Shown in pieces: positions 1,894 through 11,505 of a stretch of 64,000 nucleotides of DNA. The translations under genes were made by a program, and so were the position numbers. The notes under the pieces were generated by a model that ran no database searches, was not told the origin of the DNA, and saw only the letters and a program-made list of their open reading frames with translations. The stretch lies in NCBI RefSeq assembly GCF_002954775.1, contig NZ_PJME01000003.1:248001-312000 (forward strand), given 5' to 3'. Origin of the DNA: Streptomyces geranii (GTDB lineage Bacteria > Actinomycetota > Actinomycetes > Streptomycetales > Streptomycetaceae). Each line of letters starts with the position of its first letter. Positions within the stretch are counted from its first letter, which is position 1.

Positions 1894-3540
1894 TCACGCG
1901 CCCTGGGTGGCCTTTCCGCCTGCGGTCTGCCGGGAGCGGCTGACCGGGGCCGCCGGGCGCGGCTCCGGGTGCGGCGCGCAGTCCGTGCCCCGCACCGGCA
2001 GCCGGCCCGTCAGCAGGTACGCGTCCAGGTGGGCGTTGACGCACTGGTTCGGGCCGCCCGCGATGCCGTGCGTGCCCGCGCCCCGCTCGGTCACCAGGGC
2101 CGAGCCGGGCAGCCGGCGGCGCAGTTCGAGGGCGCCCGCGTACGGGGTCGCGCCGTCCCGCTCGGCCGCCAGGATCAGTACCGGCGGCAGCTCGCCCGGG
2201 CCGGTGCGCACGTCGAGGGGGGTCTGCCGGGGCGCCTGCCAGTAGGCGCACGGCAGGTTCATCCACGCGTTGTCCCAGGTCTCGAAGGGCGCCGTGCGCG
2301 CGAGCCGGGTGTTGTCCCGGTCCCAGACCCGCCAGTCCGTCGGCCAGGACGCGTCGTTGCACTCGACGGCCGTGTAGACCGCGTTGCCGTTCTCCGCCTC
2401 CACGGCCGCCTCCGTCACCGGCGCCGCCTGGTCGATCAGCGGCTGCGGATCGCCCTTGAGGTAGGCGGACAGGGCGTGCGCGCGGTGCGGCCAGTAGTCG
2501 TCGTAGTACCCGGCCTGGAGGAACGCGCCCTGCAACTGGCCCGGGCCCACCTGCCCGCCGGCCGGCTCGGCGGCGAGCCTGGCCGCCGCCTTCTCGTAGC
2601 TCTGCAGTACGGCTTCCGGCGTAGCACCCAGGTCGTACACGTCGTTGTGCCTGGCCACCCAGGACCGGAAGTCCGCCCAGCGGGCCTCGAACGCGGCCGA
2701 CTGGTCGAGGTTGTTGCGGTACCAGATGCCGCCCGGGTCCGGGTTCACCACCGAGTCGAACACCATCCGCCGTACGTGCGACGGGAACAGCGTCGCGTAC
2801 AGCGCGCCGAAGTAGGTGCCGTACGAGGCGCCCATGAACGTCAGCCGGTCCTCGCCGAGGGCGGCGCGGATGACGTCCAGGTCACGGGCGTTGTTGAGGG
2901 AGTGGTAGTGGCGCAGCGCGTCGCCCGAGCGCTCGGCGCACCCGCGCGCGTACGCCTTCGCCTCGGCGATGCGCTCCAGCTTGTACGACTCCGAGGGGTG
3001 CAGCGGTGCCTGGGTGGGGCCCTTGAAGAAGTGCTTCGGGTCCTTGCAGGACAGCGGCGCCGACCGGGCCACCCCGCGCGGGGCGTAGCCGACCAGGTCG
3101 TACGCCCCCGCGATGCGCTTCCACTCCGGGATGACGCCGATCATCGGGAAGAACATGCCGGAGGCGCCGGGGCCGCCCGGGTTGTAGACGAGGGCGCCCT
3201 GGCGCTCCACCTTGTGCTCGGGGTTACGCGGGTCCCGGCCGGTCGCCTCCGCGCGGCTGACGGTGAGCTTGATCTGCTTGCCGTCGGGGTGCGCGTAGTC
3301 GAGCGGCACGGTGACGGTGCCGCAGCGCAGACTGTCCGGCAGTTCCTCCTCCGGTGGGCACTTCCCGAAGTCGATCCCGGTCGCCTCGGCGCGCGCCGCG
3401 GCCCGCACGGAGCCCCGGAACTCGGCCGAGCCGGGGCCGCCCGGGCGGTCGGGCAGGCCCGGGGCGCTGTCCGCGGGGGCGGCGGCCAGGGTGGTCAGCA
3501 GCAAGGACCCGGCAGCCGTGTACAGGGCGGCAGCTCGCAT
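1894..3540 (-). CDS. Secreted alpha/beta hydrolase, tripeptidyl aminopeptidase-like
   Basis: A 548-residue exported serine peptidase-like hydrolase, converging on chdC. A hydrophobic signal peptide covers about residues 1-26 (MRAAALYTAAGSLLLTT). The core has YNPGGPGASG for the oxyanion region, a nucleophile elbow GASYGTYFGALYA (GxSxG), and a C-terminal TAP-like region with ERDGATPY for the Asp and GTHGIAGG for the His. Streptomyces homologues release N-terminal tripeptides from proteins or cleave peptide precursors outside the cell. ATG 3540 is preferred over a start at 3564 because GAAGGGA sits about 7 bases upstream. The exact substrate cannot be seen. Confidence 0.9.
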   Translation of the reverse strand: MRAAALYTAAGSLLLTTLAAAPADSAPGLPDRPGGPGSAEFRGSVRAAARAEATGIDFGKCPPEEELPDSLRCGTVTVPLDYAHPDGKQIKLTVSRAEATGRDPRNPEHKVERQGALVYNPGGPGASGMFFPMIGVIPEWKRIAGAYDLVGYAPRGVARSAPLSCKDPKHFFKGPTQAPLHPSESYKLERIAEAKAYARGCAERSGDALRHYHSLNNARDLDVIRAALGEDRLTFMGASYGTYFGALYATLFPSHVRRMVFDSVVNPDPGGIWYRNNLDQSAAFEARWADFRSWVARHNDVYDLGATPEAVLQSYEKAAARLAAEPAGGQVGPGQLQGAFLQAGYYDDYWPHRAHALSAYLKGDPQPLIDQAAPVTEAAVEAENGNAVYTAVECNDASWPTDWRVWDRDNTRLARTAPFETWDNAWMNLPCAYWQAPRQTPLDVRTGPGELPPVLILAAERDGATPYAGALELRRRLPGSALVTERGAGTHGIAGGPNQCVNAHLDAYLLTGRLPVRGTDCAPHPEPRPAAPVSRSRQTAGGKATQGA

Positions 3541-3694
3541 TCGCGTATCCCTTCGGTGGGGCAACAGAAGGGATGTTTCGGGCGCCGGTGGGTGAAGGCA
3601 AGCACCGCCCGCCCGGTGTCGCCGCGAGCACTCCTATGCGCCCCCGCACACCTCCCGGGCGCCGGGGACGGCGGGGCGGCGGGGAGTGGGCCGG

Positions 3695-4513
3695 TCAGCG
3701 CAGGCGTTCGCGCAGGGTGGCGTCCAGGGGTTCGCGGTGTGCGAAGGCCGCGCGCAGATCGGGCTCGCCGACCGCGCGGACGCCCAGTACGGCGACGGAG
3801 GTGAGGTAGGTGCGTTCGTCGCCGGTGCCGTGGTGGCCGGCGGTCCGGGTGCGCCGGGACAGGGTGGTGAGCAGGCGCTGTCCGGCGGGTGACGCCCAGC
3901 GCGAGTAGGGGTGCACCTCGACGCGGGCGATGGCGAGGCAGCTCAGGCTGAGGACCAGGGGGAGCGCGAACCAGAGGGCGACCAGGTCGCGGGGTACGGA
4001 ACCGCGTCCCGGCAGCAGCAGCGCGACCGTGCCCAGCGCGACGACGGTCAGTGCGGCGGCCCGCACCTGGCGGACCGCGAAGGCGATCCCGCGCCGGGCG
4101 CCGTCGGGCACGGCCAGGCCCGCCGCGACGAGCCGGTCCGCGAGCCCCCGTACGGCCTCGGTGCCGGCCGCGGCCCGGCGTACCGGAGCGATGCGGGACT
4201 GGCCCTCCGGTCCGATGGCGCCTATCACCGACCGTTCCATCTCGTCGCGTCCGCTCGGGTCGACGACGGTCGCCCAGCCGGTGTGGGCGAGCAGCAGGCG
4301 CCGCTGGCGGGCCATCGACACCAGGGTGAGATCGGCGACCCGGGCCGGTCCGCCGGACAGGAAGGCGGCCTCGTACAGCGTCAGGTCGTGTCCGCGTCCG
4401 CCGGGGCCCGCGTCCGGATCGGCGGCCGTCGAGTGGACGGCGGCCAGACAGAGCCGGGTGCACGCCGTACCGGCGGCGATCCAGGCCAGCAGCAGGAGGA
4501 AGGACCAGAACAT
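3695..4513 (-). CDS. TIGR04222-type membrane protein
   Basis: A 272-residue protein with an N-terminal membrane helix (WSFLLLLAWIAAGTA), a soluble stretch with the LTLYEAAFLSGGPARVADLTL signature of TIGR04222 proteins, two central hydrophobic segments (about residues 130-180), and a C-terminal soluble tail. Function is unknown. As I recall the family, many members carry a Gly/Cys-rich tail and sit near DUF692 (MNIO) genes; this copy has the neighbourhood but ends at DATLRERLR with no such tail. ATG 4513 has only a weak ribosome site. It is the most distal member of a leftward run of related genes from about 8829. Confidence 0.75.
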   Translation of the reverse strand: MFWSFLLLLAWIAAGTACTRLCLAAVHSTAADPDAGPGGRGHDLTLYEAAFLSGGPARVADLTLVSMARQRRLLLAHTGWATVVDPSGRDEMERSVIGAIGPEGQSRIAPVRRAAAGTEAVRGLADRLVAAGLAVPDGARRGIAFAVRQVRAAALTVVALGTVALLLPGRGSVPRDLVALWFALPLVLSLSCLAIARVEVHPYSRWASPAGQRLLTTLSRRTRTAGHHGTGDERTYLTSVAVLGVRAVGEPDLRAAFAHREPLDATLRERLR

Positions 4514-4607
4514 GCCGTTGTTCTATGCGAAGGGTGCCGGGAACGCCATGGGCTTTCAGGATATGGACGAGGTATGGCCGATACGCGCCGTATGGGCGAT
4601 GGCCGGA

Positions 4608-5465
4608 TCAGGGCGCTTCGACAGCCTCGGAGGGCTCGGCAGCCCTTGCGGGCTCCGAGGGGTCGGTGGGCCAGGTCGGGTCCGCGAACTCCACGATCTC
4701 GCCGACCTCCGGGGGCGGGCCGGTCGCGGGCGGCGGCAGCGGATAGGTCGCGGCCGGGGAGGGTGTCACCGGGACGGCGGACGCGGGGGCGGGCACCGGT
4801 CCTGGCGGGGCCGGGGAGTTGGTGAGCGGCGGGGTGCTCGCGGCGGCCATGTCGTTGGCCAGGGCGTCGAAGTCGACGTAGCCCGTGGCCTCCAGGACCT
4901 GGATGTGGTCGAGGACGGTCCTGTTGGCGTCGTCGGCCAGCGCCCGGACCAGGGAGTTGCGGGTGCTCGCGCGGACCTGCGCGACGACCGAGAAGACCTT
5001 GCCGTGCGCCATCCGCAGCAGGTTGGCGAACTGGCGGTCGTACTCCTGGCCCTGGGAGGCGTCCATGGTGCTCAGCCAGCCGCGCTGCTGCTCGTTCGGC
5101 TGGTTGGGCAGTTCGATCCCGAGCCGCGAGGCCACGTCCCGGACCCGCTCGTCGAGAAACATGTGCCCCTCGATCAGATGGCGGCCCGCGATCCGTACGG
5201 CCTCGGTGGTGCCGCGCTGCTGGGCCTGCTGGCCGGCGGGCAGCTCCCACAGTCCGGCGAGCCGCACCTTGACGAGGAACTCGCGGTCGAGCGCGGACAG
5301 TGGCCCGAACCGGGTGGACACCGACTGGGCGTTGAGGACGTCCGCACCGGTCCCGGCGCGGTCCGTGTACGACCAGACCGGGAAGATCAGCGCGGCGAGG
5401 GTCGCCGCCAGCCCCGAGAGGATGAGCCCGGTGCCGCCCAGGCCGGGACGTTGGATGGATCGCAT
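4608..5465 (-). CDS. DUF4142 exported protein, paralogue 1
   Basis: A 285-residue protein with an N-terminal membrane anchor or signal (LILSGLAATLAALIFPVWSY). A DUF4142 helical domain (about residues 50-185, ferritin-like) contains LDREFLVKVRLAGLWELPAG and the end motif TVLDHIQVLEATGYVDFDALAND. A Pro/Ala/Thr-rich tail of about 100 residues follows. The molecular role is unknown; DUF4142 proteins are usually exported and helical. AGGAGG lies 10 bases upstream of ATG 5465. Two closely similar paralogues lie at 7285-8097 and 8218-8829, with the MNIO gene between, which suggests a common system. No cysteine is present. Confidence 0.8.
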   Translation of the reverse strand: MRSIQRPGLGGTGLILSGLAATLAALIFPVWSYTDRAGTGADVLNAQSVSTRFGPLSALDREFLVKVRLAGLWELPAGQQAQQRGTTEAVRIAGRHLIEGHMFLDERVRDVASRLGIELPNQPNEQQRGWLSTMDASQGQEYDRQFANLLRMAHGKVFSVVAQVRASTRNSLVRALADDANRTVLDHIQVLEATGYVDFDALANDMAAASTPPLTNSPAPPGPVPAPASAVPVTPSPAATYPLPPPATGPPPEVGEIVEFADPTWPTDPSEPARAAEPSEAVEAP

Positions 5466-5676
5466 GGTGCCTTTGCCTCCTGTTGCGGCACCGCACGCTA
5501 ATGCGCTTCGGGCACGAAGTCGGCATTCTACTCCGGGCCCTACGTCAACTGCCGTACGAGGGGGAAGGGCTGTGGGGGAGGGGGCGGACGCCGGATGGGG
5601 GAGCGCACGCCGCGTACAAACCACCTGAAACGCCAACAAATAGCCACCGGAGGTGAGATGAAGCCACCGCGCTGTT

Positions 5677-5701
5677 AACCGCCGCACAGTGCGCGGCGGT
5701 T
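5677..5701 (-). terminator. Hairpin after the MNIO gene
   Basis: A perfect 9-bp stem (AACCGCCGC / GCGGCGGTT) with a 7-base loop lies 15 bases past the stop of the DUF692 gene. It fits a terminator or attenuator between that gene and DUF4142 paralogue 1. There is no U-tract, which is common in Streptomyces. Confidence 0.55.
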
Positions 5702-5715
5702 GGGGGCGGGGCGGC

Positions 5716-7155
5716 TCAGCGGCGCAGCAGTACGCGGCGGGTGGCGCGGGCCAGCCGGGCCGTGGGGCGCTGGGAGCGCGGGGCCGGGCCCGAGCGGTCC
5801 AGCCACCACTCGCGCAACCGCCGTCGGCTGTCGGCGTCCGAGGGCTGCTCGCCGAGCAGCAGATGGGCGGCGAAGTCCAGCGCGTCGTGCCGGTAGCCGT
5901 CGGACATGGGGTGCCCGTGCGCGTACGTGAGGAAGGCGGGCCGGTAGCCGTCCCCGAGGATCTCGGGCAGCTCCGGCGCGACCTTCGCGACGACATCGGC
6001 CCGCTTCGCCCCGAGCGCCCGCGCCTGCACCCCGAGCCGCACCCGGTCGAACCCCTCCGGCACAGGCGTCCCCGCGACGAGCGCGGACAACAGGGCGGCC
6101 TGCGCGAGGGCGAGACGCTGCCGGACGGGTTCGTGAGCGGCGGCGGGGCTGTCGCCGGGGGTGGCGCCGTGGCTGTCGTCGACCGCATCGCCGGCCGGCG
6201 CCTGCGCGGCGATCGGTGCCTTCGGCGCGGCCGGGGTTTTCGGTGTGGCTGTCGCCGGAGCGTGCGTCTTGTCGGTCGGTGACTTCGGTTCGGGCTGTGC
6301 CGGAGTCCGGGTCCGGGTGGACGTGGCCCGTGCCAGGGCTCCCCGGATCGCCACCAGCTCCCGCTCCAGCTCGGTCGCCTCGGGGAAGTTGTCGTCCCGT
6401 TCCAGGAGGACGCCGGGTGGGCTCACCCGGGACGCCAGGGTCGTGAGGATGTCGAGGACCGCTTCCGGGACCGGGTGGGCGTGGCTGTCGTGCCAGACGC
6501 CGTCCCGTTCGAAGCCGCCCGCGACATGGACGTACGCGATGGCCTCCACCGGCAGCTCGGCCAGGGCCTTCGCCGGGTCCTCGCCCCGGTTGACGTGGTT
6601 CGTGTGCAGGTTGGCCACGTCGATCAGGAGTCGTACGCCTGTCCGGTCGGCCAGTTCGTACAGGAACTGCCCCTCGGTCAGCTCCTCGCCCGGCCAGGCG
6701 ATCAGCGCGGCGATGTTCTCGACCGCGAGCGGCACCGGCAGCGCCGCCTGGGCGATACGGACGTTCTCGCACAGGACGTCGAGCGCGTCCCGGGTGCGGG
6801 GGACCGGCAGCAGATGGCCGGCCTCCAGGAGCGGGGAGGCGGTCAGCGGGCCGCCCGCCCGGACGAACGCGATGTGCTCGGTGACCAGGGGCGAGTCCAG
6901 TGCCTCGGCGCGCTCGGCGAGTGCGGTGAGCCGGTCCTCGGCGGGGCGGTCCGCGCCGCCCAGGCCCAGGGAGACACCGTGCGGGACGACCGTGACACCG
7001 CGCTCGCGCAGGCGGAGCAGCGACTCGGGGAGATGCCCGGGGCAGAGGTTCTCGGCCACGGCCTCGACCCAGTCGATGCCCGGCATGGCCTCCACGGCGT
7101 CCGCGATCTCCGGCCGCCACCCGATGCCCGTACCCAGCCGCTCCGGTCGCTTCAT
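5716..7155 (-). CDS. DUF692 / multinuclear non-haem iron oxidase (MNIO) with C-terminal partner-like domain
   Basis: A 479-residue protein. Residues 1-280 form a TIM-barrel DUF692 domain whose likely metal ligands are present: H59 ([12 protein letters not shown]), E93-H94, E146 (AVENIAA), D179/N182/H184 ([14 protein letters not shown]), H210 (YVHVAGG), D223/H225 and E252 (LLERDDNF). Characterised MNIOs oxidise Cys or Asp/Asn side chains of ribosomal peptides or install thioamide or oxazolone groups. A Pro/Ala/Thr linker (about 280-360) leads to a C-terminal domain (about 365-460) with RLGVQARAL and FLTYAHGHP, which by eye resembles the DUF2063/BufC partner. ATG 7155 has a GAGAAGGGGA ribosome site; a start at 7188 is less likely. 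Neighbours are DUF4142 paralogues and TIGR04222. The substrate is unknown. Confidence 0.85.
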
Positions 7156-7204
7156 GGTCCGTCCCCTTCTCCGACCTGATCGGTCCACGGAGTGATGGCC
7201 CGGG

Positions 7205-7231
7205 CTCCCGGGAGCGAACCCTTCCCGGGAG
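7205..7231 (-). terminator. Hairpin between DUF4142 paralogue 2 and the MNIO gene
   Basis: A perfect 9-bp stem (CTCCCGGGA / TCCCGGGAG) with a 9-base loop lies in the 129-base gap upstream of the MNIO start. It may terminate or attenuate transcription coming from the DUF4142 genes. Confidence 0.4.
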
Positions 7232-7284
7232 ACCTTCAGAGCAACATTTGAGCTTCCGCCCGCCCCCTGTCCGCTTCCGCCCGC

Positions 7285-8097
7285 CTACGGGGTCGGGGTC
7301 TGGGTGGGGAGTGCGTTGGGGTCCGGGGCCTCCGGCCGGTTGGTGTTGATCGTGCCGGGTGTCGTCGGCGACGGCTTCGAGCTCACGACGACGTCGGTGG
7401 TCGGCTCCACCGCGGGCGCGACGGGCGGCACCACTCCGGGCGACGGCGGCGGCGGACCGGTCGGACTGGCGCTGGGCCCGGCGGCGTTCTCGGCGATCTT
7501 CTCGAAGTCGACCTGGCCGGTCTTCTCCAGGATCGTGATGTGGTCGAGCACCGTCTGGTTGGTGTCCGAGGCCAGTTGACGCACGAGCGTGTTGCGGGTC
7601 TGGTTCCGCACCGTCGCGACGACCGGGAGGATGTTGCCGTGTGCCTGCCGCAGGAGTTGCGCCCAGACCCTGTCGTAGTCCGCGGGCGAGGCCGCCGTCA
7701 TCTGGTCCAGGAAGCCCTGCTGCTGTGCGTTCGGCACGTTGGGGATCGGGACACCGAGCAACTGGGAGGCGTTCCGGGCCCGCTTGTCGAGGTCGTTGTG
7801 GCCCGTGATCAGGTGCTGGGCCGCCTCCCTGACGGCGGGATTGCTGGACTTCTGCATCGCCTGCTGTCCCGCGGGCAGTTCCCACAGCCCGGCCAGCCGG
7901 ACACGCACGATGAGTTCGCGGTCCAAGGGGGTCAGCGGTCCCCACTGGGTGTTCACCGTGTCCCCGGCGAGCGGGGCGGCTGCGGCCGTCGCGGCGTCGT
8001 TGCGGTGCGGGTACGAGTAGAACACGGGGTACGCGAGCGCGCCGACGGTGCCTGCGATGGCGAGGCCTACGAGGAGCGTGCCGTTCATGCGGGGCAA
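7285..8097 (-). CDS. DUF4142 exported protein, paralogue 2
   Basis: A 270-residue protein built like paralogue 1: an N-terminal hydrophobic segment (LLVGLAIAGTVGALAYPVF), a DUF4142 domain with LDRELIVRVRLAGLWELPAG and TVLDHITILEKTGQVDFEK, and a Pro/Thr-rich tail of about 75 residues. The start is set at TTG 8097, 5 bases after GGGAGG. The next ATG (8088) is 14 bases from that site, and in paralogue 3 the equivalent ATG is ATC while the TTG is kept. An annotation starting at 8088 would lose three residues. Function unknown; the gene probably works with the neighbouring MNIO and TIGR04222 genes. Confidence 0.8.
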   Translation of the reverse strand: MPRMNGTLLVGLAIAGTVGALAYPVFYSYPHRNDAATAAAAPLAGDTVNTQWGPLTPLDRELIVRVRLAGLWELPAGQQAMQKSSNPAVREAAQHLITGHNDLDKRARNASQLLGVPIPNVPNAQQQGFLDQMTAASPADYDRVWAQLLRQAHGNILPVVATVRNQTRNTLVRQLASDTNQTVLDHITILEKTGQVDFEKIAENAAGPSASPTGPPPPSPGVVPPVAPAVEPTTDVVVSSKPSPTTPGTINTNRPEAPDPNALPTQTPTP

Positions 8098-8217
8098 GGG
8101 AGCCTCCCGGGGGAAACCCAACTGGGCGTTGGGGACTGGTACGTGGCTGGTGGGGGACGTACGTGAGAAGCGGTCAGGACACCGAGCGGGCCCGGGCCGC
8201 CGTCACGTGTACACGAG

Positions 8218-8829
8218 TCAGATCAGGCCGTTGGCGATGGCGTCGAAGTCGACCGCACCGGTCTTCTCCAGCATCGTGATGTGGTCGAGCACGGTCTGGT
8301 TCGTGTCCGTCGCCAGTTGACGTACCAGCGTGTTCTGGGTCTGGTTCCGGATCGCCGCGACGTCCGGGAAGATCGTGCCGTGGGCCTTGCGCAGGATGCT
8401 CGCCCAGACCCGGTCGAACTCCTTGCCCGCGGGGGCTGCGTCCATCTGGGCCAGGAAGCCCTGCTGCGCCTCGTTCGGCTGGTTGGGCAGCTCCACGTTG
8501 AGCTGGGCGGCGACCTTCCGCACCCGCTCGTCCAGGTCGCCGTGGCCCACCAGCAGGTGGTCCGCCGCCTCCTTGACGGTGGCGCTGCTGGACTTGGCCA
8601 TCGCCTTCTCCCCGGCGGGCGCCTCCCACAGACCGGCCAGCCGGACGCGCACGATCAGACTGCGGTCCGAGGCGGTCAGCGGTCCCCACTGGGTGTTCAC
8701 CGTGCCGGCGGCCGTGTTCGACACCCCGGTGCCGGACCGGTCGGAGTAGGACCACACAGGGAACGCGAGCGCGGCCACCGTGGTGGTGAGGGCCGCGATG
8801 ACGAGGGCCGAGTGGTTGATGCGCGGCAA
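8218..8829 (-). CDS. DUF4142 exported protein, paralogue 3 (no tail)
   Basis: A 203-residue version of the same protein: an N-terminal hydrophobic stretch (ALVIAALTTTVAALAFPVW), then DUF4142 with LIVRVRLAGLWEAPAG and TVLDHITMLEKTGAVDFDA, ending directly after the domain. The low-complexity tail of its two sisters is absent. The TTG at 8829 follows GGGAGGCTCCT; there is no ATG nearby because the sister codon ATG is ATC here. The frame stays open upstream to 9042, but that stretch overlaps the 3' end of the opposing-context gene at 8915 and has no family similarity. It is probably the first gene of the DUF4142/MNIO block. Confidence 0.8.
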   Translation of the reverse strand: MPRINHSALVIAALTTTVAALAFPVWSYSDRSGTGVSNTAAGTVNTQWGPLTASDRSLIVRVRLAGLWEAPAGEKAMAKSSSATVKEAADHLLVGHGDLDERVRKVAAQLNVELPNQPNEAQQGFLAQMDAAPAGKEFDRVWASILRKAHGTIFPDVAAIRNQTQNTLVRQLATDTNQTVLDHITMLEKTGAVDFDAIANGLI

Positions 8830-8914
8830 AGGAGCCTCCCGGGGGAACCAACTGGTCGTTGGGCAGATGTTGCTTGGCCAGCGACAGGAGGTACGGCCGG
8901 GGACCCGGTGATGT

Positions 8915-9655
8915 TCAACGAAGATGTTTGAAACCTGTGCGTCCCAGGGGACGGTGGTCCGCCACGACGGTCGCCGAACCGGGCGCGATCTCCGTGAAAC
9001 CGGCATCGCGGACCAACGGCAGCCCGCTGCCGGTGAGTTCACGCCAGCGGTCCGGCTCCGCCGTCCGTACGGCGAGCGGGAAGCCGGCGTCCCGCCAGGC
9101 AGCCCGCGCCTCGTCCGACAGCTCCCACCACGCCAGCTGGGCGCCGTGCCCGGTCTGCGCCATCGCCTTGCCCGCCGACATGTCCAGCTCGGGGTTGAGC
9201 CAGAGCACGGGCACCGCCGGGTCGGGCCCGAGCGGCGGCTCCGGATCGTCCAGATCCGTGCCGGACACCTGGAGCCGGGCGAGATCCTTGGGCCAGCCGT
9301 CCAGCGGTACGGGCGGGAACACCCGCACCTCGGCCGACTTCCCGGTCACGGTGATCCCGTCCAGCGCCTCGGCCCGCCGCCACTCGGCCCCCCGAGCCCG
9401 CCGCACGACCTTGCGGATCCGGGCGTCCTGCCAGTCCCGCATGACCTGGGCCCACTCCCCGTCCCCGACGGCCCGCTCATCGGCGAGGATCACGAGCACG
9501 GCCCGCGCGGCGGTCTCCAGGGCGTCCGTACGAGCGGGCGGCGCCCCCTTCTCGATCCGCGCGACAAGGGGCAGAACGAACTGGGGCGCCTCGTCGCGCG
9601 ACGACGGCTCCGGCCGAAAAGGACTGTCCCCGGCTGACCTCTGATCATGGCTCAC
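8915..9655 (-). CDS. Peptidyl-tRNA hydrolase, PTH2-type
   Basis: A 246-residue protein. The C-terminal half holds the PTH2 signature: LDMSAGKAMAQTGHGAQLA, followed by a helix with WELSDEARAAWRDAGFPLAVR and a terminal strand with GSATVVADHRPLG. PTH2 enzymes free tRNA from prematurely released peptidyl-tRNA. The N-terminal half (LPLVARIEKGAPPARTDALE) is the extra region found in the long actinobacterial form. The start is set at GTG 9655; the frame is open to 9760, but that stretch is a dispersed intergenic repeat. The ribosome site is weak. The call rests on motif reading only. Confidence 0.72.
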   Translation of the reverse strand: MSHDQRSAGDSPFRPEPSSRDEAPQFVLPLVARIEKGAPPARTDALETAARAVLVILADERAVGDGEWAQVMRDWQDARIRKVVRRARGAEWRRAEALDGITVTGKSAEVRVFPPVPLDGWPKDLARLQVSGTDLDDPEPPLGPDPAVPVLWLNPELDMSAGKAMAQTGHGAQLAWWELSDEARAAWRDAGFPLAVRTAEPDRWRELTGSGLPLVRDAGFTEIAPGSATVVADHRPLGRTGFKHLR

Positions 9656-9668
9656 GAGGACCCACCCT

Positions 9669-9715
9669 AGGGGCGCGAGGAACTGCGCGACCAGCCACCT
9701 CGAACCCGCAGCCGC
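9669..9715. repeat. Dispersed Streptomyces intergenic repeat, copy A
   Basis: The segment contains GGGGCGCGAGGAACTGCGCG followed by ACCAGCC, then a gap and CCCGCAGCC. I recognise this from many Streptomyces genomes as a dispersed intergenic element. It fills the gap between the peptidyl-tRNA hydrolase and ABC genes. A second copy of the same family, with an extra stem, lies at 19792-19862. Function unknown. Confidence 0.55.
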
Positions 9716-9734
9716 GCCACGACAGAATGACCCC

Positions 9735-10646
9735 ATGCAAAGCGATCTACGCCTGACCAACGTGGGCCGCCGCTACGGCATACGCGGCCCCTGGGTCCTG
9801 AGACACATAGACCTGACCCTCGCCCCCGGCACCCTCACCCGCGTCGAAGGCGCCAACGGCACAGGCAAGTCCACACTCCTGCGCGTCCTCGCCGGCATCG
9901 ACACCCCCACAGAAGGCACCCTCACCGGCCGCCCCCGCACCACCTACGTCCCCGAACGCTTCCCCGCCCGACTCCCCTTCACCGCCCACGGCTACCTCAC
10001 CCACCTCGGCACCATCCACGGCCTTCCCCGTACGACCGCCGCCCGCGCCGCCGACGAATGGCTTGAGCGCCTCGGTGCAGCCGCCTACGCCCGCACCCCC
10101 ATGGCCCAGCTCTCCAAGGGCAGCAGCCAGAAGGTGGCCGTCGCCCAGGCCCTCCTCCCCGCCCCGGAGCTGCTCGTCCTCGACGAGGCCTGGACGGGCC
10201 TCGACACCGCCGCGCGGGCCGAGTTGGAGCGGGTCGTCGCCGAACTCACCGCGTCCGGCGCCTCGGTGGTGTTCGTCGACCACGACCCGGCCCGGCTCGC
10301 GGGGGCACCCGACGCGACGTACACCGTGACCGAGGGCGGCCTCAACCGCCGTACGGCACAAGCCGGTTCACCGGAACCCAGCGGCCCGCACCTGCTCGTC
10401 GAGGCGCAGGGCCCGCCCGGCGCGGAACCCCCGGCCGAGGCGCTGAGGTGGACGACGTCCAGGGCGGAGACCACGGCACCGGGCGGCCACCGCCTCACCG
10501 TCCCCCGGACCCACTCGGACGTCGTGCTCCGCGCCCTGCTCACGGCCAGCCCACCCTGGCACGTGGCGAGCGTCGACCCCGGAGCGCCCGCGAGGAACCA
10601 CACCACCGCACCCGCCCCGCTCACCACCGACGAAGGCCCCAGATGA
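9735..10646 (+). CDS. ABC transporter ATP-binding protein
   Basis: A 303-residue nucleotide-binding subunit. Walker A is GANGTGKST (about 39-47), the signature motif is LSKGSSQK, Walker B is LLVLDEAWTGLD, and the switch His lies in VFVDHDPA. The ABC core ends near residue 215; the last 85 residues form an extension rich in Pro/Ala. It is translationally coupled to the next gene (ATGA overlap at 10643), a small integral membrane protein, so the pair is likely an exporter. The substrate is unknown. No Shine-Dalgarno site is visible before ATG 9735; CAGAAT ends 6 bases upstream, which would fit a leaderless transcript. Confidence 0.9.
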   Translation: MQSDLRLTNVGRRYGIRGPWVLRHIDLTLAPGTLTRVEGANGTGKSTLLRVLAGIDTPTEGTLTGRPRTTYVPERFPARLPFTAHGYLTHLGTIHGLPRTTAARAADEWLERLGAAAYARTPMAQLSKGSSQKVAVAQALLPAPELLVLDEAWTGLDTAARAELERVVAELTASGASVVFVDHDPARLAGAPDATYTVTEGGLNRRTAQAGSPEPSGPHLLVEAQGPPGAEPPAEALRWTTSRAETTAPGGHRLTVPRTHSDVVLRALLTASPPWHVASVDPGAPARNHTTAPAPLTTDEGPR

Positions 10647-11314
10647 CCGCCCTCCTGCGCTACCAGGCCGCCCTCCTCGTGCGCTCGCAGCGCTGGCTGC
10701 CGCCGTTCATCCTGTACGCGGTCTTCCTGGCCGTCGGCGTGCAGGGCGGCCAGCCGGTGCTCGACTCGCTCGGGTACGCGGCGGCGGCCGTACTGCCGGT
10801 GGCCGCCTGGCTGGTGCGGATCTGCGCGGGCAACGAGCCGCCCGCCGCCCGCGCCGTCGTGGCGGCGGCCGTCGGTCCCGGCCGGGCCCACCTCGCGTGT
10901 CTCCTCGTGGCCTTGGCCGCCGCCGCGCTGCTCGGCACGGCCGCGACCGTCCTGGTGACCCTGATCAGCGACCCGGCGAGCGCCGATCACCAGGTCCGGG
11001 TGGAACCCCTCCCGGCCGGCGCCGCCGGACTGCTCGCCGCACTGGTGTGCGCCCTGCTCGGCACGGCCGTCGGCGCGCTCACGACCTGGCCCCTGCTGCG
11101 CTCACCCGGCCGCGCGGTGCCCGCGATGATGCTCGGCGTCCTGTTGGCCTTGGTGGTGGCGGGCTCCCCGGCCCAGTCGGCGATCACGTCCCTGGTGACC
11201 GGCTCGCGCGCGGGCACGGTTCCGGTGCCGTTGCTGCCGCTGGCCGGCGCGGCCCTGCTCACCGCGGCGGCGACCGCCACGGCCTGCGCGCTCACCGCCC
11301 GCCGCTCACCCTGA
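10643..11314 (+). CDS. ABC transporter membrane subunit
   Basis: A 223-residue hydrophobic protein with about six membrane segments, for example PFILYAVFLAVGVQGG, HLACLLVALAAAALLG and LAALVCALLGTAVGALTTW. No catalytic motif is present. It overlaps the ATP-binding gene by 4 bases (ATGA), which indicates coupled translation and a two-gene transporter. Its last 63 codons are repeated in tandem directly downstream (11316-11505). The longer open frame from 10448 lies inside the ATPase gene and is rejected. Confidence 0.85.
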   Translation: MTALLRYQAALLVRSQRWLPPFILYAVFLAVGVQGGQPVLDSLGYAAAAVLPVAAWLVRICAGNEPPAARAVVAAAVGPGRAHLACLLVALAAAALLGTAATVLVTLISDPASADHQVRVEPLPAGAAGLLAALVCALLGTAVGALTTWPLLRSPGRAVPAMMLGVLLALVVAGSPAQSAITSLVTGSRAGTVPVPLLPLAGAALLTAAATATACALTARRSP

Positions 11315-11315
11315 A

Positions 11316-11505
11316 GATGATGCTCGGCGTCCTGTTGGCCTTGGTGGTGACGGGCTCCCCGGCCCAGTCGGCGATCACGTCCCTGGTGACCGGCTCGCGC
11401 GCGGGCTCGGTCCCGGTGCCGTTGCTGCCGCTGGCCGGCGCGGCCCTGCTCACCGCGGCGGCGACTGCCACGGCCTGCGCGTTCACGGCCCGCCGCTCAC
11501 CCTGA
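11316..11505 (+). pseudogene. Tandem duplicate of the permease 3' end
   Basis: These 190 bases repeat 11125-11314 with six mismatches (about 97% identical); the copies start 191 bases apart. The copy begins at ATG ATG and could encode a 62-residue fragment (MMLGVLLALVVTGSPAQSA...), but 191 is not a multiple of 3, so it is not a readthrough extension of the intact gene. Three mismatches change residues (A to T, T to S, L to F). It is most simply a non-functional duplication remnant, though the open frame with an ATG could still be translated. Confidence 0.75.

Follow-up and report, generated by a model that had tools for sequence, protein, structure and literature searches.

The genes studied here occupy positions 3695-8829 of a 64-kb stretch of the Streptomyces geranii genome (contig NZ_PJME01000003.1, positions 248,001 to 312,000), which is referred to as the window and provides the coordinates used below. 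They encode an MNIO enzyme, three DUF4142 proteins and a TIGR04222 membrane protein, and were recognized as five leftward genes in a first-pass annotation made from the sequence, a description borne out by profile searches that placed all five on the minus strand. As shown in Table 1, they lie between an open reading frame (ORF) for a PTH2-like protein and a gene for a TAP-like hydrolase, in such a way that the order of transcription, all on the minus strand, is PTH2-like, DUF4142 #3, DUF4142 #2, MNIO, DUF4142 #1, TIGR04222, TAP-like hydrolase. The genome of the window is called G000, and other G and L numbers designate sampled genomes and loci.

Table 1. Genes of the MNIO locus in the window and of its apparent flanks.
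Feature	Position	Strand	Profile score	Remarks
TAP-like alpha/beta hydrolase	1894-3564	-	PF08386, 95 bits	Apparent flank
TIGR04222 membrane protein, tail-less paralogue (T0)	3695-4513	-	TIGR04222, 151 bits (cut-off 43)	Conserved CxRLC, first membrane helix
DUF4142 #1 ("post" type)	4608-5465	-	PF13628, 68.9 bits	Membrane anchor at N-terminus; TYPLPP motif in Pro-rich tail; Cys-free
MNIO	5716-7155	-	PF05114, 253 bits (cut-off 25)	Barrel, residues ~6-275; Pro/Ala-rich linker; C-terminal PME-like domain, residues ~340-479
DUF4142 #2 ("pre" type)	7285-8097	-	PF13628, 69 bits	Probable TTG start; membrane anchor and Pro-rich tail; Cys-free
DUF4142 #3	8218-8829	-	PF13628, 67.7 bits	62% identity to #2, but tail-less; probable TTG start; Cys-free
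PTH2-like ORF	8915-9760	-	PF01981, 33 bits	Putative start; apparent flank

For comparison, the MNIO loci of 80 MNIO-positive genomes of the genus plus the window (81 genus loci) were annotated with profiles built here, and 80 named Streptomyces loci served as a further comparison set. A class-wide sample of 296 genomes contained 66 that were MNIO-positive, 40 of them outside the genus, from which 35 loci were fetched (G168, G186, G373, G392 and G432 were left out). Within the genus, MNIO (PF05114) was detected in 141 of the 150 sampled genomes.

Enzymes of the MNIO family carry out the oxidation of cysteines in peptides. The model of the catalytic TIM barrel of MNIO, with a mean predicted local distance difference test score (pLDDT) of 69.5, fits TglH and MbnB, with a Z of 23.9 to both 8hi7_B and 7dz9_A and root-mean-square deviations of 3.3 and 2.7, respectively. 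Residues H59, E93, H94, H114, E146, N147, D179, N182, H184, H210, D223, H225 and E252 are invariant in all 81 genus MNIOs, and the conserved His, Asp and Glu presumably include the metal ligands. The second domain of the protein is present at all 81 genus loci and fused to the barrel at 75, appearing as a separate ORF at five (L076, L042, L043, L067 and L039) and in another frame at L048. Outside the genus it was found at 31 of the 35 loci, at 24 as a separate ORF, mostly of 115-180 residues, behind a short MNIO; at least two of the outside loci (L213 and L219) have it in one frame with MNIO, and therefore the fusion also occurs beyond the genus. This partner domain had no match among the Pfam and NCBIfam models, and the matches listed in a fold search with the MNIO model covered the barrel only. 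In its location and length it fits the PME-type 2 partners (DUF2063-like, encoded directly after MNIO) described in PMC12452194. At L048, the partner domain and TIGR04222 were found in one frame with the Cys tail out of frame, through either an assembly error or a real frameshift.

The three DUF4142 proteins (67.7-69 bits, with a PF13628 cut-off of 27) are all devoid of cysteine, as the first-pass annotation had it. It had also noted similar signal regions in the paralogues, and at the DNA level the nearly identical sequence TTCCCCCGGGAGGCTCC was found immediately before the probable TTG starts of DUF4142 #2 and #3 (window 8098-8119 and 8830-8851, minus strand). The model of DUF4142 #2 is a helical bundle with core pLDDT above 90, and its best matches among solved structures were the copper and silver forms of CopM, with DUF305 among the next ones; the template modelling score to CopM was 0.75-0.79 on target, with a best Foldseek E-value of 2.5e-3 and no match at 1e-3. 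Across 33 aligned rows, H95 and H100 are invariant and H153 and H186 nearly so. A role of CopM in copper resistance is reported in PMC4335983, and the modelled fold suggests that DUF4142 proteins could likewise be copper-binding.

The TIGR04222 protein of the window has no Cys tail, in agreement with the annotation, and retains C18, C22 and C192, which are conserved among its orthologues. As Tc we designate a TIGR04222 protein with a tail of at least three Cys encoded after MNIO, which is present at 46 of the 81 genus loci and absent from 35, the latter including the window's (no-Tc loci). L038, with a shortened tail (one Cys), was classed as tail-less and L048, frameshifted, as tailed, and at the named loci L259 and L296 a Cys-tail-type N-terminus is interrupted by the contig end. 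When the best 17 candidates per genome were scored, TIGR04222 was found in 131 of the 150 genus genomes. The motif W[CW][AGS] occurs in 41 of the 47 linked (cis) Cys tails of the genus.

The linkage of these genes was also studied. DUF4142 lies within 6 kb of MNIO at 43 of the 81 genus loci and within 5.5 kb at 60 of the 80 named loci, some of which end at contig ends, a linkage that is more than chance; beyond the genus it was not found near MNIO at any of the 35 loci, a number of which are likewise truncated. At 32 of these 35 outside loci, MNIO has an ORF with a Cys-rich tail within 6 kb, 17 of these ORFs matching the TIGR04222 profile built here. None was found within 6 kb of MNIO at the 35 no-Tc loci of the genus, and the same tail scan was negative over the whole window, supporting the earlier statement that no Cys-rich precursor is encoded nearby. 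Candidates for a conserved Cys-rich small ORF within the locus were discarded, as they appeared to be reading frames that overlap adjacent genes or the N-terminus of T0. We infer that the older unit consisted of a Cys-tailed protein, MNIO and the partner, and that DUF4142 and T0 are additions. In an MNIO tree built by a quick method, the window belongs to a group with support 90 (unstarred) that comprises 35 rows, 33 of them without a Cys-tailed protein; within this group L089 and L090 retain the arrangement preD-MNIO-Tc-postD-T0-TAP. The Cys-tail label requires at least four changes on the whole tree, against a mean of 26.5 when shuffled, and inside the window's group the tree does not decide between one loss followed by a regain and several losses.

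Selection was measured as the ratio of nonsynonymous to synonymous substitution rates (dN/dS), computed pairwise by the method of Nei and Gojobori (NG86) on pairs with dS of 0.2-1.0, with the DUF4142 paralogues pooled. In the group that has lost the linked tail (the window's tree group minus four loci, plus the 80 named loci), median values were 0.132 for MNIO, the lowest of the five families, 0.173 for PTH2, 0.304 for TIGR04222, 0.366 for DUF4142 and 0.404 for TAP. At tailed loci the median for MNIO was 0.212, and the lowest was that of DUF4142 (0.145). Since PTH2, TIGR04222 and TAP also have higher values at tailed loci, we claim only that MNIO shows no relaxed selection where the cis precursor is missing. 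These data bear on whether MNIO at such loci could be a remnant or could serve a function unrelated to peptides. The absence of a cis precursor from 35 of the 81 loci is in favour of such a proposal, but the low median dN/dS of MNIO, its invariant set of His, Asp and Glu and the presence of the partner domain at all 81 loci make it highly improbable.

The first-pass annotation left two possibilities, a substrate encoded elsewhere or a novel kind of action of this MNIO on exported DUF4142 proteins or a membrane partner. The second would have the enzyme modify non-Cys residues of DUF4142, such as the Tyr of a TYxLPP motif, or the CxRLC of T0, and several observations are in its favour: the linkage is kept, DUF4142 is the most constrained family at tailed loci, and MNIOs that modify Tyr and homocitrulline have been published. 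The tail motif of DUF4142 #1 recurs in similar form in many orthologues, but its Tyr is replaced by Phe or His in some tails. CxRLC, at the first membrane helix (window 4440-4513, minus strand), is found in 99 of the 115 sequences that were classed as T0, with Val in place of the second Cys in two MNIO-less genomes; nevertheless, one Cys of the pair is missing from some T0 proteins of MNIO-positive genomes, and the motif was ruled out as a target for this reason. Moreover, some MNIO loci have no DUF4142 gene and others no TIGR04222 gene, T0 being missing from some, and in G023 and G045 MNIO is kept with neither family detected by these searches, both genomes carrying the small unlinked protein described below. 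DUF4142 relatives are present, conversely, in two genomes without detected MNIO (G008 and G089). The linkage, whose absence elsewhere would have counted against the inference of the annotation, is conserved, but DUF4142 and TIGR04222 behave as dispensable partners and are less likely as substrates, in such a way that a modification of the linked proteins is weakened as an explanation and appears unlikely to us.

A candidate for a substrate encoded elsewhere was found by reading nine stretches of G000, picked by eye from a scan of this genome for closely spaced Cys-Gly codons. It is an ORF of 96 amino acids with a good ribosome-binding site (G000:C26:49860-50150; L336:3861-4151), consisting of one membrane helix, an Arg-rich stretch, the sequence SWWAGG and then SSCSGGSSCGGGSSCGGGGGGC. 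The family to which it belongs, hereafter the trans protein, comprises single-pass membrane proteins of ~80-100 amino acids that carry SSCGGG repeats and the motif W-W-A-G. The starts of the small genes were picked by a script requiring a Shine-Dalgarno-like motif. Relatives were detected in 35 of the 150 genus genomes by a single-sequence search and in 104 by a profile search in which the best 36 candidates per genome were scored. One of these 104 is a Cys-less match in G138 (L402), which was ruled out as a decayed orthologue because it lies elsewhere in the genome, away from the aminotransferase gene that accompanies the family; the true counterpart was read separately. This aminotransferase gene is present at 34 of the 37 fetched trans-protein loci. 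The 27 rows aligned out of 30 fetched (L366, L370 and L371 were left out) all have the two W and three of the Cys. The trans protein matches no Pfam or NCBIfam model at cut-off, the CtaJ model giving a weak match of 17 bits against a cut-off of 43. A stricter tail scan covering 1.1 Mb of the named MNIO loci found zero such tails, which are therefore uncommon. Two or more adjacent copies of the small WWAG-Cys gene were seen at L353, L366, L440 and L461 (genomes G108, G002, G010 and G006).

In the trans protein, the residues before the helix are uncharged, and those that follow it include an Arg-rich stretch. According to the positive-inside rule, the positively charged side of a membrane helix faces the cytosol. 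The sequence thus suggests that its tail would face the cytosol, where MNIO is. The tails of TIGR04222 proteins are predicted to be extracytoplasmic in PMC12452194.

A different unlinked protein could also be the substrate, either one not found here or the second TIGR04222-like protein of the genome (L003:1207-1818, minus strand; G000:C6), which is encoded near a carboligase-like gene and has a Gly/Ser tail with one Cys. The matches of the own-genome scan for tail patterns were listed in part, which leaves room for such a protein, and homologues of the carboligase-linked one were found in 31 of the 150 genus genomes. Their tails, however, contain 0-6 Cys, several having none, and a family so patchy and so variable in Cys cannot explain the near-core conservation of MNIO; it was accordingly ruled out as a universal trans substrate, and we hold a substrate of this other kind to be rather improbable.

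The co-occurrence of the trans protein with MNIO was then considered. In the 66 MNIO-positive genomes where the small protein was read, WW was found in 65, and a Cys tail in cis or in trans was found in 80 of the 81 genomes of the genus set. By the profile together with the places read, all 35 no-Tc genomes (29 of them read) and 38 of 46 Tc genomes were positive for the trans protein, a difference that is not evidence by itself, given that the orthologous place was read in all eight no-Tc genomes missed by the profile and in only part of the Tc genomes. With the profile only, the figures were 27 of 35 and 33 of 46 (p 0.62), and 35 of 35 and 38 of 41 for resolved cases (p 0.24).

MNIO was not detected in 9 of the 150 genus genomes. 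Six of these (G138, G088, G105, G047, G050 and G145) have, at the orthologous place, a divergently oriented small gene by the aminotransferase gene, with 0, 0, 1, 2, 2 and 2 Cys and neither WW nor SSCGGG repeats. Another, G089, was left out of the decay count, its sole aminotransferase match being 52% identical and the nearby Gly-rich small ORF not being divergently oriented. Tail decay is associated with the absence of MNIO (Fisher p 1e-5, 76 genomes, phylogeny ignored and G089 left out; an earlier p of 1.7e-6 counted G089 as decayed). In a tree of the aminotransferase, from which six short or paralogous rows were dropped and where G002 was counted as having the trans protein, the six decayed tails make up two clades, in such a way that the independent losses are few. 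A substrate encoded elsewhere is supported, short of proof, by a Cys-tailed protein detected in all 35 no-Tc genomes and its decay in six of the nine MNIO-less ones, and a distant precursor now looks likely.

Taken together, we slightly favour, at somewhat better than even chances, that the MNIO-PME fusion modifies Cys tails and that in the window's group its target is the unlinked small membrane protein. The fusion would be a maturase of the type acting on ribosomally synthesized and post-translationally modified peptides (RiPPs), modifying the cysteines of membrane proteins that end in Gly/Ser/Cys tails. The older of its targets would be the linked Cys-tailed protein, often TIGR04222, and the genus would have an additional unlinked one, the WWAG/SSCGGG protein usually encoded beside the aminotransferase gene; only the latter would be left in the window's group, where the linked one is absent. 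The C-terminal domain may grip the tail near the W motif, so that the iron-containing barrel could oxidise the Cys to give a membrane-tethered ligand for a soft metal, probably copper, and the exported DUF4142 bundles may be accessory metal-binding proteins. This proposal is based on the distribution, the orthology, the shared W motif, the tail decay in most MNIO-less genomes and the absence of relaxed selection on MNIO; that the trans protein is the substrate, as well as the chemistry, the metal and the topology, is our inference. More tentatively, and with odds that we put somewhat below even, a near-core maturase of the genus would act in trans on an unannotated family of small membrane-anchored proteins, turning a cytosolic Cys tail into a tethered metal ligand, with W-x-A-G as the recognition site shared by cis and trans substrates and with loss of the enzyme leading to tail decay.

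Several observations weigh against an unlinked Cys-tailed target. The own-genome scan gave 158 matches, listed in part, against 153 with a reversed-pattern control, which is no excess; the comparison of no-Tc and Tc genomes is not informative, as stated above; and the lower dN/dS of MNIO in the lost group is unspecific, as it is shared with PTH2, TIGR04222 and TAP. The trans protein was not shown in 27 of the 141 MNIO-positive genomes. G096 and G055 keep MNIO and Tc with no WW tail at the orthologous place, and in the one genome with a Cys tail neither in cis nor in trans, G119 (L048), the cis tail is out of frame and the profile detected no trans protein. Among the small proteins themselves, that of G002 (L366) has one W only, and that of G043 has WW but a single tail Cys. 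Two genomes where MNIO was undetected, G102 and G008, have an intact tail (six and at least three Cys, respectively); both are fragmented (1420 and 740 contigs), and in G008 the DUF4142 domain stops ~500 bases before a contig end, where MNIO could follow, but in G102 a whole 15-kb contig with PTH2 is without MNIO. Finally, an independent-pairs test on the two clades of decayed tails was not significant, and among 30 closer relatives of MNIO at least one has a different residue at H184.

Regarding the flanking genes, the full order PTH2-D-D-MNIO-D-T0-TAP was found at 5 of the 80 named loci (L225, L226, L228, L241 and L302). In the MNIO-less G088 and G138, PTH2 adjoins TAP with no DUF4142, MNIO or TIGR04222 in between (L185 and L186); because the two genes lie side by side without the cassette in these genomes, they look like flanks, and the PTH2-like protein was ruled out as a component of the system. 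The same ORF resembles the "adjamnio-II" neighbour described in PMC12452194. Further along the window, the end of an ABC permease-like ORF is present in tandem duplicate (10448-11505, plus strand), ORFs 10448-11314 and 10897-11505 sharing their nearly identical last ~60 residues.

The substrates of MNIO enzymes are usually sought beside the enzyme gene, but the genes adjacent to this one do not look like suitable partners, with the tail-pattern scan, the orthology and the enzyme-less genomes pointing to an unannotated small protein elsewhere. If this is true, a target would be assigned to the MNIO of 141 of 150 genus genomes, and DUF4142 proteins would be suggested as part of the same metal-handling system.

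Several known systems are related to the one in the window. The TIGR04222-MNIO clusters with PME-type 2 partners, as described by Antoine et al. 2025 (PMC12452194), share MNIO, TIGR04222, a PTH2-like neighbour and a partner domain after MNIO, whereas here the partner is fused, the linked TIGR04222 is tail-less, DUF4142 genes are present and the Cys tail is on an unlinked protein. DUF4142 has 0 occurrences in the main text of that paper, and no published mention of it together with MNIO clusters was found in the literature searched. The small family, at whose sequence none of these searches was directed, may already be in print. The bufferins/oxazolins (BufB/HvfB) are similar in having a Cys-rich precursor, and MNIO_BufB is the closest named MNIO model by score, but the 175 bits of the window's MNIO are below the NF050167 equivalog cut-off of 310, and the candidate described here differs in its SSCGGG repeats after a single membrane helix. 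Precursors away from the MNIO have already been mentioned in print for bufferins. The predicted helical fold of DUF4142 #2 and its conserved His are like those of the copper-binding CopM/DUF305 proteins, though at a Foldseek E-value of only 2.5e-3. Both the locus and the enzyme are of a known kind, in an unusual variant with a fused partner, DUF4142 neighbours and a substrate whose gene probably lies elsewhere.

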